NCBI RefSeq assembly: GCF_007474535.1
Contig: NZ_VKNW01000007.1
Span: forward strand, 1 to 64,000
DNA length: 64,000 nucleotides
Origin: Chryseobacterium echinoideorum
GTDB taxonomy: Bacteria; Bacteroidota; Bacteroidia; Flavobacteriales; Weeksellaceae
Direction of reading: 5' to 3'
Positions within the stretch are counted from its first letter, which is position 1; each line of letters opens with the position of its first letter. The position numbers were made by a program, and so were the translations under genes. The notes under the pieces were generated by a model, which was given only the letters and a program-made list of their open reading frames with translations, was not told where the DNA came from and ran no database searches. This document shows, piece by piece, positions 15,519-26,403 of the stretch.

Positions 15519-15526
15519 TATTTTTG
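15519..15526 (+). promoter_or_regulatory. -7 promoter box for the cysteine-synthase-family gene
   Basis: TATTTTTG matches TAnnTTTG. With TTTA 19 bases upstream (15496-15499) in the -33 position, it makes a reasonable promoter 31 bases before the ATG. Confidence 0.55.
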
Positions 15527-15557: not shown

Positions 15558-16595
15558 ATGAGTAATGTTTACGATAATATTCTTGGCTTAATCGGGAGCA
15601 CGCCTTTGGTAAAATTAAATACCGTCACAAAAGACATACCTGCAACTGTTTATGCTAAGTTAGAATCATATAATCCTGGACATTCCACAAAAGATAGAAT
15701 CGCACTTCATATCATAGAAAACGCTGAGAAAAAAGGTTTATTAAAGGAAGATTCTGTAGTGGTAGAAACCACTTCCGGAAATACAGGTTTCTCAATTGCC
15801 ATGGTCTGCATTATTAAAGGTTATAAATGCATACTGGCAGTGAGTGATAAAACTAAGCCTGAAAAAATTGCTTACCTTAAAGCTTTAGGAGCAAAAGTTT
15901 ATGTGTGTCCTGCGAATGTTCCCGCGAATGACCCTAGATCTTATTATGAAGTAGCAAAAAGAATTGCTGCTGAGACCCCTAATTCTATTTACATCAATCA
16001 ATACTTTAATGAGTTGAATGTTGATGCCCATTACAAGACCACCGGTCCTGAATTATGGGAACAGACTCAGGGGAAAATCACCCACCTTTTTGCATGTACA
16101 GGAACAGGAGGAACACTCTCAGGATCTGCCAAATTTTTAAAAGAAAAAAATCCTGATATAAAGATTATAGGTGTAGATGCAGACGGATCTATTCTTAAAA
16201 GTTATCATGAAACCGGCGAAATCCACAAAGAAGATGTACATCCTTATCAGATTGAGGGAATGGGTAAAAATTTAATCCCTTCTGCTCTTCTTTTTGAGAA
16301 AGTAGATCATTTTGTGAGAGTAAATGACGAGATGTCTGCCTACAGAACCAGAGAAATCGCTCTAAAAGAAGCCATCATGGGTGGGTATACAACAGGAGCT
16401 GTAACTCAGGCATTGATTCAGTATGCCAATTCTTACCAATTTACTGAAAAAGACTGTGTCGTATTGATCTATCCTGATCATGGTTCCAGATATATAACAA
16501 AAGTTTACAGCGATAAATGGATGGAAGAGCAAGGTTTTATCAATAACTGTTTTCACAATTATGAAGAAGTCTTCAAGACAGAAATTATCAAATAA
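15558..16595 (+). CDS. PLP-dependent cysteine-synthase-family enzyme, probable cysteate synthase
   Basis: A fold-type II PLP enzyme of 345 residues. The PLP lysine is Lys45 in GHSTKDR, the substrate loop is TTSGNTG (71-77), and the phosphate-binding loop is TGTGGT (181-186). The body and the C-terminus (SDKWMEEQGF) resemble the catalytic core of cystathionine beta-synthase, with neither heme nor CBS domains. A plain O-acetylserine sulfhydrylase usually has about 300-310 residues. The next gene encodes an alpha-oxoamine synthase. From memory of capnine synthesis in Capnocytophaga and Flavobacterium, such a pair makes L-cysteate (from phosphoserine and sulfite) and then acylates it. I therefore infer cysteate synthase; cysteine synthase or cystathionine beta-synthase activity remains possible. 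Confidence 0.8.
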   Translation: MSNVYDNILGLIGSTPLVKLNTVTKDIPATVYAKLESYNPGHSTKDRIALHIIENAEKKGLLKEDSVVVETTSGNTGFSIAMVCIIKGYKCILAVSDKTKPEKIAYLKALGAKVYVCPANVPANDPRSYYEVAKRIAAETPNSIYINQYFNELNVDAHYKTTGPELWEQTQGKITHLFACTGTGGTLSGSAKFLKEKNPDIKIIGVDADGSILKSYHETGEIHKEDVHPYQIEGMGKNLIPSALLFEKVDHFVRVNDEMSAYRTREIALKEAIMGGYTTGAVTQALIQYANSYQFTEKDCVVLIYPDHGSRYITKVYSDKWMEEQGFINNCFHNYEEVFKTEIIK

Positions 16596-16616
16596 AAATT
16601 TTAACTGATAAAAAGT

Positions 16617-16645
16617 AAGCCTTTTTTGTAATTCATAAAAGGCTT
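16617..16645 (+). terminator. Hairpin terminator or attenuator between the two sulfonolipid-candidate genes
   Basis: Arms aagcctttt (16617-16625) and aaaaggctt (16637-16645), followed by a T-run. It separates genes only 75 bases apart, so it either ends the first transcript or sets a ratio through partial readthrough. Confidence 0.8.
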
Positions 16646-16670
16646 TTTTACTTAAAAAAACTACAACATA

Positions 16671-17945
16671 ATGTTAGATATTTTTGAAAGAATAAAGCAA
16701 AACCCAGGTCCATTGGGACAATTTGCAGATTATGGTGAAGGATATTTTATTTTCCCGAAGCTTGAAGGTCCTATTGGTCCTAGAATGCAGTTTCAGGGAA
16801 GAGAAGTCATTTTTTGGAGTGCCAATGACTATTTAGGATTGTGTAATCATCCTGAAGTTTTGGAAGCAGACGCAAAAGCTGCAGCAGAATTCGGAATGTA
16901 CTATCCGATGGGAGCAAGAGCAATGTCGGGAGAGACGCATCAGCATTTGCAGCTGGAAAAAGAACTGGCAGAATTTGTTCAGAAAGAGTCAGCATATTTA
17001 TTAAACTTCGGTTATCAGGGAATGGTTTCTACTATAGATGCCCTGGTTGGAAGAAACGATGTGATTGTTTATGATGTAGATTCTCACGCCTGTATTGTAG
17101 ACGGTGTAAGACTTCATTCCGGAAAAAGATTCACTTACCGTCACAATGATATTGAAAGTCTTGAAAAAAACCTGCAGAGAGCAACAAAAGTAGCTGAAGA
17201 AACAGGAGGAGGAATTTTAGTAATTACTGAGGGTGTTTTCGGAATGAGAGGGCAGCAGGGCAAACTAAAAGAAATCTGCGAGCTGAAATCTAAATACCAG
17301 TTCAGACTTTTAGTAGACGATGCCCATGGATTTGGTACCCTTGGTAAAACAGGAGCCGGAGCCGGAGAAGAACAAGGATGTCAGGATAAAATTGACGTTT
17401 ATTTTTCAACTTTTGCAAAATCTATGGCAGGTTTCGGAGCTTTTATTGCGGGAGATAAAGAAATCATCAGATATTTAAAATTCAATCTTAGATCTCAGAT
17501 TTTCGCGAAATCTTTAACGATGCCTATGGTAATCGGGGGGTTGAAAAGACTGGAATTATTAAGAACAAGACCAGAAATCAAAGCAAAACTTTGGGAAAAT
17601 ACCAATAAACTTCAAAAAGGTCTTTTAGAAAGAGGATTTAACATTGGAGACACCAATACTTGTGTAACACCTGTTATGATGCAGGGAACTCCTGTAGAAG
17701 CTACTCTGTTGGTAAAAGATTTAAGAGAAAACTTCGGAATCTTTACCTCCGTGGTTGTTTACCCGGTAATTCCAAAAGGAATGATTTTATTAAGGTTGAT
17801 TCCTACTGCTTCTCATACGGATGCAGAAATTAATGAAACATTGGCCGCATTTGAAGCAATACATGATAAGTTGACAAACGGATTTTATAAAGATCAGGAG
17901 CAGAAACTCCTTGCTGAACAAGGTTTAAGTTTCAAGGAAATTTAA
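16671..17945 (+). CDS. Alpha-oxoamine synthase, probable cysteate fatty acyltransferase (capnine synthase)
   Basis: A fold-type I PLP enzyme of 424 residues in the serine palmitoyltransferase / KBL / BioF family. The PLP lysine is Lys250 in STFAKSMAGFGAF, the cofactor aspartate is in DDAHGFG (216-222), and the N-terminal half has SANDYLGLCNHPEV and GARAMSGETHQHLQLE. These enzymes join an acyl thioester to an amino acid with loss of CO2. The protein is longer than Sphingobacterium serine palmitoyltransferase as I remember it, with an extended C-terminus. Next to a cysteate-synthase candidate, it best fits the acyltransferase that makes 3-keto-capnine, precursor of sulfobacin-type lipids known from Chryseobacterium. 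Serine palmitoyltransferase or 2-amino-3-ketobutyrate CoA ligase are alternatives. Confidence 0.82.
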   Translation: MLDIFERIKQNPGPLGQFADYGEGYFIFPKLEGPIGPRMQFQGREVIFWSANDYLGLCNHPEVLEADAKAAAEFGMYYPMGARAMSGETHQHLQLEKELAEFVQKESAYLLNFGYQGMVSTIDALVGRNDVIVYDVDSHACIVDGVRLHSGKRFTYRHNDIESLEKNLQRATKVAEETGGGILVITEGVFGMRGQQGKLKEICELKSKYQFRLLVDDAHGFGTLGKTGAGAGEEQGCQDKIDVYFSTFAKSMAGFGAFIAGDKEIIRYLKFNLRSQIFAKSLTMPMVIGGLKRLELLRTRPEIKAKLWENTNKLQKGLLERGFNIGDTNTCVTPVMMQGTPVEATLLVKDLRENFGIFTSVVVYPVIPKGMILLRLIPTASHTDAEINETLAAFEAIHDKLTNGFYKDQEQKLLAEQGLSFKEI

Positions 17946-17956
17946 GTTAAAATATA

Positions 17957-17980
17957 AAACCTCAGAAATTTCTGAGGTTT
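17957..17980 (+). terminator. Terminator after the alpha-oxoamine synthase gene
   Basis: A perfect 24-base palindrome, aaacctcagaaa followed by its reverse complement, then a T-run. Confidence 0.88.
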
Positions 17981-18029
17981 TTTTCCATCATTACTTGCAA
18001 GAATCAACAATATCAATAAAGCTTTTCTT

Positions 18030-20225
18030 TTGAAAGACATTCTTCTTATTACGCCGCCTTTTACGCAACTCAACACACCATATCCTGCAACGGCATACAT
18101 CAAAGGTTTCCTGAATACTAAAGGTATTTCAAGCTACCAGATTGATTTGGGAATTGAGGTAATATTAAAACTATTTTCAAAAGAAGGTTTTCAGAAGATT
18201 TTTGCGAATAGTAAAGGAAAAAATATTATCTCAGAAAACTCACAAAGAATTTTCGCTTTAAGAGATGAATATATTAAAACCATTGATCAGGTTATTCTTT
18301 TTCTGCAGGGAAAAAATCCTACTTTAGCAAGACAGATCTGTTCGATGAATTTTCTTCCCGAAGCTTCCCGTTTCAACCTGCTGGATGATATGGAATTTGC
18401 TTTTGGGAATATGGGTTTACAGGACAAAGCCAAACATTTGGCCACTCTTTATCTGGAAGATATTTCTGATTATATTGTAGAAAATACAGATGCCGATTTT
18501 GGTTTCAGCAGATATGCGGAAAGATTAGGTAAATCTGCTAATTCTTTTGATGAATTGTACTCCAAACTACATCAGGATGTTACTTTCACAGATGATTTCA
18601 CTTTGGAAATTCTTCAGGAAAAAATAGAGTTTATTAAACCTAAACTTATTTGTTTTTCAGTTCCTTTTCCGGGAAATTTATATTCGGCTTTTCGTTCTGC
18701 GAAATTTATCAAAACAAACTATCCTCATATTAAAACAGCAATGGGAGGTGGTTTTCCAAACACAGAACTCAGAGATCTGAAAGATGAAAGAGTTTTTGAG
18801 TTTTTCGATTTCATCACTTTAGATGACGGAGAACTTCCTATTGAGTTGGTGTATGAAGATATTTGTAGTCCGAAAAAAACTCAGGAATCTCAGCTTAAGC
18901 GAACTTTCCTTCTTGAAAATCAAAAAGTTGTTTATAAAAACAATTCTTTAAAACACGATTACAAACAATCAGAAATAGGAACTCCTGATTATACAGATTT
19001 ACGACTAGATCAATATATTTCTGTGATTGAAATTGCCAATCCTATGCACAGTTTATGGAGCGACGGAAGATGGAATAAATTGACGATGGCACATGGTTGC
19101 TATTGGGGGAAATGTACTTTTTGCGATATTTCATTAGACTATATCAAAATCTACGAGCCTATTTCTGCAAAAATTCTGGTCGACAGAATGCAAGAACTGA
19201 TTACCCAAACAGGAGAAACCGGCTTTCACTTTGTAGATGAAGCTGCACCTCCTGCTTTAATGCGGGAAGTTGCTCTTGAGATTTTGCGAAGAAATCTTGT
19301 AGTCACCTGGTGGACAAATATTCGTTTTGAGAAAAGTTTCACACAGGATTTATGCTTTTTGCTTAAAATGTCAGGATGCGTTGCTGTTTCCGGTGGACTT
19401 GAAGTGGCAAGTGACAGACTTTTAAAATTAATTGATAAAGGAGTTTCTGTAGATCAGGTGGCAAAAGTTACAAGAAATTTTACAGAATCCGGAATCATGG
19501 TTCATGCTTATCTTATGTACGGCTATCCTACTCAAACGGTGCAGGAAACAGTAGATTCATTAGAAATGGTTCGTCAGCTTTTTGAAATGGGAATTTTGCA
19601 AAGTGGTTTTTGGCATCAGTTTGCGATGACCACACATTCACCTGTAGGAAAAAATCCTGAACAATTTGGTATCATTCCGGTACACCAAGAGATAAAATTT
19701 GCCAATAATGATATTGATTTTAAAGATAAAACAGGAGTTGATCACAGCAAATTCAGTTTTGGACTAAAAAAGTCGCTTTTTAATTATATGCACGGAATTA
19801 ATTTTGAAATTCCTCTGCAGGAATGGTTTGATTTCAAAATACCTAAAACTACAGTTCATCCGGATTACATTCACGACTGCCTTTTAGAAGAAGACTCCTT
19901 TGTTTTTAAACCCAATTCAAAAATTATATTTTTAGCTAAAAATATGGTCGTTGAAAATTATATTAAAACAAAAAAACAACATTCATGGTCTTATTCTAAA
20001 GTGACTTTTCATTTAAAAACCAATATTGTTACCATAGATATCGAGCAGGAAAAAGCAAGTTGGCTAATCAAAACCATGGAAAACAATTCGTTGGATAATA
20101 ATCATAGAATAACTTTGAATCAAATTAAAACTCAATTTGAGGAGAAGTTTGAAAACTTTGAATTGTTTTGGTTTTCTAAGCCGATTCAGCAACTGAAGGA
20201 AAACGGAATTATTCTTAGTTTATAA
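18030..20225 (+). CDS. B12-binding-type radical SAM protein of unknown substrate
   Basis: A 731-residue protein. The start is a TTG at 18030; the frame opens at 17976 with no ATG before the conserved ILLITPPFTQLNTPYPA, so TTG is the best choice. Residues about 1-280 resemble a cobalamin-binding (Rossmann) domain, with GGGFPNTELRDL and DDGELPIEL. The radical SAM core is about 345-590. Its cluster-binding cysteines are Cys357, Cys362 and Cys365 in GCYWGKCTFC, so the spacing is C-x4-C-x2-C rather than the usual C-x3-C-x2-C. The last 140 residues are unassigned. Class members methylate or rearrange unactivated carbons, but the substrate here is unknown. It lies 36 bases before the ABC ATPase gene. 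Confidence 0.85.
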   Translation: MKDILLITPPFTQLNTPYPATAYIKGFLNTKGISSYQIDLGIEVILKLFSKEGFQKIFANSKGKNIISENSQRIFALRDEYIKTIDQVILFLQGKNPTLARQICSMNFLPEASRFNLLDDMEFAFGNMGLQDKAKHLATLYLEDISDYIVENTDADFGFSRYAERLGKSANSFDELYSKLHQDVTFTDDFTLEILQEKIEFIKPKLICFSVPFPGNLYSAFRSAKFIKTNYPHIKTAMGGGFPNTELRDLKDERVFEFFDFITLDDGELPIELVYEDICSPKKTQESQLKRTFLLENQKVVYKNNSLKHDYKQSEIGTPDYTDLRLDQYISVIEIANPMHSLWSDGRWNKLTMAHGCYWGKCTFCDISLDYIKIYEPISAKILVDRMQELITQTGETGFHFVDEAAPPALMREVALEILRRNLVVTWWTNIRFEKSFTQDLCFLLKMSGCVAVSGGLEVASDRLLKLIDKGVSVDQVAKVTRNFTESGIMVHAYLMYGYPTQTVQETVDSLEMVRQLFEMGILQSGFWHQFAMTTHSPVGKNPEQFGIIPVHQEIKFANNDIDFKDKTGVDHSKFSFGLKKSLFNYMHGINFEIPLQEWFDFKIPKTTVHPDYIHDCLLEEDSFVFKPNSKIIFLAKNMVVENYIKTKKQHSWSYSKVTFHLKTNIVTIDIEQEKASWLIKTMENNSLDNNHRITLNQIKTQFEEKFENFELFWFSKPIQQLKENGIILSL

Positions 20226-24290: not shown

Positions 24291-24717
24291 GTAAAATGTA
24301 AAAAGTATTAATGTACTAACGATGCACAACTTTAGAGATTTAGAAGTTTGGACAAAATCAATGAAACTTTGTAAAATATTTATTTAGCTTCTAATAATTT
24401 TCCAAAAAATGAAATATTCGGATTGACTTCACAGTCAAGAAGAAGCTTATATTCAATTCCTTCTAATATTGCTGAAGGTGCAGGTCGAGATACAAATGCC
24501 CAATTTTCACATTTTCTGAATATTGCATTAGGTTCTTCATTTGAATTCGAAACTCAGATTTTAATTGCTGATGAGTTGGAATTCTTTAAAAATGATGATT
24601 TTAATATGATTTATTCCGAAATTAAACATATACAAAATATGTTGGTAAAACTGAAGCAGAAGTTTAATACTTAAGCATTTTAAATCATAAATACATTTTA
24701 CGTAAATACATTAATAC
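24291..24717. repeat. Inverted-repeat pairs bracketing the first four-helix-bundle gene
   Basis: On the left, gtaaaatgta (24291-24300) and gtattaatgta (24305-24315). On the right, their exact reverse complements tacattttac (24692-24701) and tacattaatac (24707-24717). The order within each side is the same rather than mirrored. The units flank the frameshifted gene tightly. Confidence 0.6.
24322..24674 (+). pseudogene. Frameshifted four-helix-bundle (S23/IVS) gene
   Basis: The reading frame starts MHNFRDLEVWTKSMKLCK from ATG 24322 and hits a TAG at 24385-24387. From about base 24375 the family sequence continues in another frame (IYLASNNFPKNEIFGLTSQ, then SIPSNIAEGAGRDTN, NIALGSSFEFETQILIA) to TAA at 24674. 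One base missing from the A-run in the tgtaaaa stretch would restore a single frame of about 117 codons. The joined product matches the 23S rRNA intervening-sequence four-helix-bundle family and resembles the intact gene at 25956. It lies between fadN and fadA. A sequencing error in the homopolymer would give the same picture. Confidence 0.8.
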
Positions 24718-25914: not shown

Positions 25915-26403
25915 AATAGACAGATAGATAATGGACACTTAGAAACACACAAGAAATGATGGATGATTTTAAAAGACATAATTTTAAAAAGCTTAAAATT
26001 TGGAAAATGGGTATGGAATTGTCAAGAGCAACATTAGATCTTACCGATACTTTTCCAACTTATGAAAAATATGGTTTGAAAAGCCAAATGGATCGATGTT
26101 CAATCTCTATTCCTTCAAATATAGCTGAAGGTTCAAGCAGAACAAATAAATCTTTTAGTCATTTTTTAGATATTTCTTTGGGTTCGTCATTTGAATTGCA
26201 AACTCAAATATTATTGGCAAATCATAAAAAATATTTATCTGATGAAAAATGTGAAATCTTTGAAGTAAAAATTGAAGAATTCCAAAGAGCAACAATGGTA
26301 TTTCAAAATATACTTAATAAAGACTAAAAAGATGATAGACTGACAGAAAATAGATAATAAAATGATTTTGATAAATAATAAGTCTATCATCTATCCGTCT
26401 ATT
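25915..26403. repeat. Imperfect terminal inverted repeats around the second four-helix-bundle gene
   Basis: The 22 bases at 25915-25936 match the reverse complement of 26382-26403 at 19 of 22 positions, and the three differences are all transitions. Built of gatagac/gatagat-like words. A further partial copy in direct orientation lies at 26331-26356, and gatgatagact (26331-26341) pairs exactly with agtctatcatc (26381-26391). Confidence 0.65.
25956..26327 (+). CDS. Four-helix-bundle protein (S23/IVS family)
   Basis: A 123-residue all-helical protein of the 23S rRNA intervening-sequence four-helix-bundle family. Signatures are FKKLKIWKMGMELSRA, YGLKSQMDRCSISIPSNIAEG, and HFLDISLGSSFELQTQILLA. 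The family name comes from its first discovery inside 23S rRNA insertions, and the molecular role is unknown; members are also related to the Avd protein of diversity-generating retroelements, of which no reverse transcriptase is seen here. The gene sits between fadA and fadE on the same strand. It starts at ATG 25956 (ATGATG; the second is four residues before FKRHNFKK). Flanking inverted repeats suggest that it entered the operon as a unit. Confidence 0.88.
   Translation: MMDDFKRHNFKKLKIWKMGMELSRATLDLTDTFPTYEKYGLKSQMDRCSISIPSNIAEGSSRTNKSFSHFLDISLGSSFELQTQILLANHKKYLSDEKCEIFEVKIEEFQRATMVFQNILNKD

Follow-up and report, generated by a model that had tools for sequence, protein, structure and literature searches.

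Sulfonolipids matter for gliding, choanoflagellate development and host inflammation, according to PMC9304779, where the mechanism of the acyltransferase SulA is also described. The cysteate synthase and the cysteate fatty acyltransferase (CFAT) of Chryseobacterium gleum have been characterised (PMC11211663, crediting Hou et al. 2022), and the same source says that in that species the reductase genes do not adjoin the genes of these two enzymes. CapA, CapB and CapC were reported from Capnocytophaga (PMC10191378, crediting Liu et al. 2022), and the reaction of CapA is described in the same source. Since the enzymes are already described from C. gleum and Capnocytophaga, the gene pair presented here is a further case of a known system, and its conservation throughout the genus points to orthology with the assayed C. 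gleum proteins. The pathway is known from close relatives; less familiar are the gene switch between the two genes and how widely the pathway occurs among Bacteroidia.

The pair was found in a stretch of 64,000 nucleotides from Chryseobacterium echinoideorum (contig NZ_VKNW01000007.1), which as a whole is called the window, and its products very probably catalyse the two initial steps leading to capnine-type sulfonolipids. By analogy with the characterised relatives, sulfite would displace the phosphate of O-phospho-L-serine in CapA, with PLP on Lys45, giving L-cysteate. CapB would form an external aldimine of cysteate at Lys250; after decarboxylation, condensation with acyl-ACP or acyl-CoA as the fatty acyl thioester would give 3-ketocapnine. 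Reductases whose genes lie elsewhere, together with an N-acyltransferase, would then lead to capnine and sulfobacin-type lipids.

The gene pair and its conservation

Both genes lie on the forward strand, capA at 15558..16595 (345 aa) and capB at 16671..17945 (424 aa), separated by 75 bases. Two reading frames of these lengths and positions had been proposed in an earlier note made from the letters of the window alone, with the first protein described as a cystathionine-beta-synthase (CBS) type core lacking CBS domains, and with Lys45 and Lys250 singled out. Start and stop codons of both frames were verified, both lysines are present, and Pfam finds PALP (PF00291) alone in the first protein and Aminotran_1_2 alone in the second. 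Lys45 aligns with the Lys column of CBS, which we take to be its PLP lysine, and Lys250 aligns with the Lys found in all rows of serine palmitoyltransferase (SPT), in 2-amino-3-ketobutyrate CoA ligase (KBL) and in BioF. The assignment of the PLP lysine of SulA is given in PMC9304779.

A radical SAM protein of 731 aa is encoded downstream of capB, at 18030-20225. Its similarity to B12-type C- and P-methyltransferases is weak and far under every cut-off, and relatives of it were seen near capA in 25 of 80 loci, within the flanks searched. The possible products of two small ORFs, at 24423-24674 and 25956-26327 of the window, resemble four-helix-bundle proteins of the kind found in 23S rRNA intervening sequences.

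Within the genus, full-length CapA was found in 57 of the 59 genomes searched (own copy 100%, the others 90-95% identity); of the two exceptions, G021 lacks CapA, and G054 has it only as partial copies where contigs end. In 119 genomes of Flavobacteriales, with CapA called at E <= 1e-146, CapA was present in 29 and CapB in 70, and all 29 genomes with CapA also have CapB (Fisher 1e-8). A hand count placed capA directly upstream of capB, on the same strand and less than 600 bases away, in 20 of these 29 genomes, with two more within 2 kb. The genes are apart in the remaining seven, six of which belong to one genus (g2), while in G318 they are on two contigs. G334, a same-genus genome, has CapB and no CapA at E 1e-146. 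Adjacency is not due to chance, because 69 of the 80 named capA loci have a same-strand capB just downstream; the other 11 include two second copies and five loci titled Flavobacterium.

Second copies of capA occur in some Chryseobacterium-type genomes: in G053, G036 and L129, where they are 74-78% identical to that of the window, and in L078 (92%); those in L129 and L078 have no capB beside them. Two types of capB occur in Chryseobacterium (L071-L128), one with about 85% and the other with 91-95% identity to the capB of the window, and the capA genes beside both types show 90-93% identity. The two types possibly go back to in-place replacement of capB. This is not statistically secured: the one-clade constraint was not rejected (p-AU 0.07), with groups picked post hoc.

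Identity of the two enzymes

As a check on its own reading, the earlier note had named the position of the first protein relative to the cysteine synthase/CBS clade, and that of the second relative to SPT and KBL. In a tree of 66 proteins, built by a quick method with SH-aLRT as the only support value, the first protein fell outside the cysteine synthase/CBS clade and inside a CapA clade (support 97), which consists of 38 CapA rows, the window protein among them, and the structure 9k2p. This clade is also apart from CysK and CysM of E. coli, and the named relatives among the rows nearest to the window protein are from Chryseobacterium. Of the CBS rows from Bacteroidia, 21 of 23 group in a separate clade (99); the remaining two (family f52) lie in neither the CBS nor the CapA clade. 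All 89 CapA rows, including 9k2p and an outlier from G199, carry Lys237-Asn238, and all 23 Bacteroidia CBS rows have Glu-Asp in the same columns. Lys237 may assist in binding either sulfite or the departing phosphate.

The best sequence match of the first protein in the PDB was 9k2p, titled CapA1 from Capnocytophaga ochracea, with 433 bits, followed by CBS with 256. In the structural comparison 9k2p gave Z 38.4 and rmsd 3.3 over 328 aligned residues, at 56% identity, and CBS entries reached Z up to 37.3 at 39% identity, which means that CapA and CBS cannot be told apart by fold.

The NCBIfam profiles ranked CysteaSynCapA (NF053679) first, at 541 bits. This is below the cut-off of 600, which is a curator's threshold and not a biochemical feature. 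The cut-offs for CBS (TIGR01137, 356 of 510 bits) and CysK (TIGR01139, 258 of 351 bits) were also missed, and 18 residues of the window CapA lie past the end of the match to NF053679. The CapA cut-off was passed in 14 of 29 CapA-bearing Flavobacteriales genomes and in none of the 13 from the window's own family. We read it as narrow, because the tree and the signature residues agree on CapA.

A CBS-like paralogue in the same genome (G000:C4; 327 aa, 51% identical to CapA) is its other protein of the CysK/CBS type, and a similar protein was found in nearly all genomes of the genus searched. Its best NCBIfam match is also the CapA model (441 bits, CBS 422); with the window protein also below the cut-off, the model alone is not decisive. 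Since the paralogue is also too short for CBS domains, their absence is no marker of CapA in this genome.

That the first protein could be a common cysteine synthase or CBS of sulfur assimilation, merely lying beside a lipid gene, has some points in its favour: it shares their fold and PLP core, its next best families are CBS and CysK, and the NCBIfam profile search found no CysK above cut-off in this genome, so some cysteine synthase is needed. That role can be served by the paralogue, which is likely the cysteine synthase or CBS of the genome. With the separate CapA clade containing the structure from C. ochracea, the CapA-specific Lys237-Asn238, and CapA never occurring without CapB in the 29 genomes, such an assimilatory role for the first protein is very unlikely.

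The second protein fell outside both SPT and KBL. A tree of 71 proteins gave a single CapB clade (support 100, with the structures 7u7h and 28eh inside), apart from SPT (99), KBL (100) and BioF, with the order among families unsure as the tool flags long branches at the deep joins. Residue 280 is Lys in all 98 CapB rows and in another 20, less identical, CapB rows, Ala in all 11 SPT rows and Asn in both KBL rows. The corresponding Lys281 of AfSulA may tell sulfonolipid from sphingolipid enzymes (PMC9304779), and the four active-site residues named in the same source, i.e., Asn52, His139, Lys250 and Arg375, are all kept in the window CapB. The top PDB sequence matches were 28eh (titled 'Cysteate-C-fatty acyltransferase', 650 bits) and 7u7h (cysteate acyl-ACP transferase of Alistipes finegoldii, 569 bits), and the next was an SPT with 237 bits. 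The clades of both proteins, together with the Lys280 marker, support the sulfonolipid pair that had been suggested from the letters.

As an SPT or a KBL, the second protein would serve sphingolipid or aminoketobutyrate metabolism. The alpha-oxoamine synthase (AOS) fold is common to all candidates: structural comparison gave Z 52.5 for 7u7h (rmsd 2.0, 398 residues aligned, 60% identity), and also Z 50.0 for the KBL 1fc4 and 49.7 for the SPT 3a2b. In addition, CapB matched no NCBIfam model of its own, and the search lists SPT and KBL first, though far below cut-off (SPT NF047600, 293 of 640 bits; the glycine C-acetyltransferase and KBL models, 293 of 460 and 257 of 493 bits). Such a role is hardly conceivable, given the separate CapB clade and Lys280 in place of the Ala of SPT and the Asn of KBL. 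The other AOS protein of the genome is a KBL in its own right (633 bits, cut-off 493), and no SPT was found in the genome at E 1e-150. Curated annotation can miss sulfonolipid genes like these, the CapA cut-off being missed in all 13 CapA genomes of the window's own family and CapB matching no model of its own.

The intergenic hairpin and the transcription of capB

The gap between capA and capB holds a hairpin followed by a T run at 16617..16649 (forward strand, arms 16617-16625 and 16637-16645), and a similar terminator-like structure lies 3' of capB at 17956..17984 on the same strand. The earlier note had suggested that the intergenic hairpin may set a ratio. This is supported in part: the hairpin is terminator-like and recurs at the same place in other loci, and it might set a ratio. 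Hairpins and boxes were compared in 70 adjacent pairs, i.e., 69 loci and the window. A strict terminator filter was passed by 53 of the 70 pairs and by 0-2 of 70 in ten shuffled sets; it misses 17 pairs, and a looser listing has a hairpin for several of these. Covariation in the hairpin is weak, with double changes at one of six consensus pairs, in three of 26 sequences. In several species a short direct repeat (about ATYACGATACAA) was seen on both sides of the hairpin (intergenic regions of L077, L085 and L087).

TAnnTTTG is the consensus of a promoter type of Bacteroidota (-7-like box). In the window the box TATTTTTG lies 5' of capA at 15519..15526 (forward strand), and in 77 of 81 loci a box of this type precedes capA by no more than 150 bases, compared to 11-23 in five shuffled sets. 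Boxes before capB depended on the width of the gap. Of the 30 pairs with gaps of at least 90 bases, 28 have a box before capB, on the 3' side of any hairpin that was called (1-7 of 30 in shuffled gaps), whereas of the 40 pairs with gaps below 90 bases, the class of the window, one has it. The last 250 bases of capA contained a box in one of 40 narrow-gap and six of 30 wide-gap pairs. Most, but not all, of the listed Chryseobacterium loci belong to the narrow-gap class.

By these patterns, each wide-gap pair seems to form two separate transcription units, and in the narrow-gap pairs capB would be supplied either by read-through past the hairpin or by an unrecognised promoter. No promoter-like box was found between the hairpin and capB in the window. 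With a hairpin between the genes and no box after it, transcription of capB here probably comes from partial read-through past the terminator-like hairpin. Alternatively, transcription of capA would simply stop at the hairpin and capB would be driven by a promoter of its own, in which case no ratio is set. The boxes before capB in the wide-gap pairs speak for this; their near absence in the narrow-gap pairs, the window included, both in the gap and at the end of capA, speaks against it, though such a promoter could be degenerate, and we give this alternative somewhat less than an even chance.

Cysteate supply across Bacteroidia and comparison with known systems

In a sample of 198 genomes of Bacteroidia, with CapA called above 500 bits, CapB was found in 172, CapA in 8, the archaeal-type cysteate synthase in 2, SPT over cut-off in 12 and phosphosulfolactate synthase (ComA) in 166. 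ComA was present in 156 of the 164 genomes with CapB and without CapA, and in none of the eight with CapA. The numbers of genomes with both CapB and ComA, with CapB only, with ComA only and with neither were 156, 16, 10 and 16 (Fisher 9e-9). In the quality subset (at least 90% complete, at most 5% contaminated; 175 genomes before the CapA genomes were left out) they were 139, 6, 6 and 16 (5e-13). These statistics ignore shared descent, and seven of the eight CapA genomes belong to one order. Three of the ComA proteins from Bacteroidia are just under the cut-off of the archaeal model (251-271 of 280). ComA is a possible alternative supply of cysteate. Against the link stand the 10 genomes with ComA and without CapB, and seven CapB genomes without CapA, ComA or archaeal-type synthase.

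For the 119 Flavobacteriales genomes it was predicted before testing that ComA would be present where CapB occurs without CapA, absent from CapA genomes and mostly absent where CapB is lacking. As predicted, none of the 29 CapA genomes has ComA. ComA was found in 26 of 41 genomes with CapB and without CapA, in partial agreement, and in 18 of 49 without CapB, weaker than predicted (11 of the 18 from family f75). The association between CapB and ComA is weaker in this order (p 0.02). Fifteen CapB-positive genomes have neither CapA nor ComA. According to PMC12927429, 'Labilibaculum euxinus' has capnine lipids, a CapB match of 61% and a CapA match of only 32%, though its authors still score CapA as present. 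We count this paper in favour of the ComA link. In the open-licence library searched, no paper joining phosphosulfolactate and sulfonolipid was found.

A search for a conserved neighbour that might supply cysteate, in 20 capB loci from other genomes of the class, gave besides capB only four recurrent ORF clusters, each in 4 or 5 of 21 loci. CapA-like ORFs were restricted to the window and the G199 locus among these 21. In L174, L176, L183 and L185, from four class genomes of different families, four recurrent ORF clusters adjoin capB. A common theme downstream of capB was sought and not found among ten ORFs tested with Pfam (stress protein, HHH motif, pirin, DUF2911, polysaccharide deacetylase, pseudouridine synthase, rhomboid). 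Around ComA (20 loci, L219-L238), clustering placed a TPR protein directly upstream in 15, and the neighbourhood included a shikimate-dehydrogenase-type protein in 12, a VCA0040-like translocase and a rhodanese in six each, and a VTT protein in four. No ComB or ComC was among ten neighbour proteins named by Pfam, and part of the ComA cluster also occurs in G263, a genome without CapB. Neither this neighbour content nor the cluster in G263 supports a dedicated cysteate operon around ComA.

The review PMC10191378 asks why synthesis of sphingolipids and sulfonolipids appears mutually exclusive, and the counts of CapB, ComA and SPT make this question testable. Of the 12 genomes with Bacteroidota-type SPT, six have CapB, all with ComA, and six have neither, four of the latter from one family (f33). 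CapB is absent from six of the 12 SPT genomes and from 20 of the 186 others (p 0.0016). Genes for the two kinds of lipid can occur in one genome, so exclusion between them is not strict.

We suggest tentatively that, beside a CapB that is near-universal in the Bacteroidia sampled, the cysteate supply has been exchanged: Weeksellaceae, Flavobacteriaceae and some few other groups would use CapA, most of the class the ComA route, and a few members an archaeal-type synthase. If so, sulfonolipid capacity would be a default trait of the class and not peculiar to a small number of genera, and outside the CapA lineages the missing first step would be ComA.

In comparison with the known systems, the window CapA is 56% identical to CapA1 of C. 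ochracea, falls into the same clade and carries the same Lys237-Asn238, and its gene is adjoined by capB. CapB is 60% identical to 7u7h and 67.5% to 28eh; Fjoh_2419 of Flavobacterium johnsoniae is another CapB/SulA/CFAT system. Unlike in Alistipes and Odoribacter, where cysteate comes from an archaeal-type synthase and not from CapA according to PMC10191378, the gene here is of the CapA type. CapA shares the PLP fold, the TSGNT stretch and the Lys column with CBS and O-acetylserine sulfhydrylase, but it belongs to another clade than CBS, with Lys237-Asn238 where the Bacteroidia CBS rows have Glu-Asp. Likewise, CapB shares its fold with SPT of the Sphingobacterium and Bacteroides type, but it is only 34% identical to 3a2b and has Lys280 in place of Ala.
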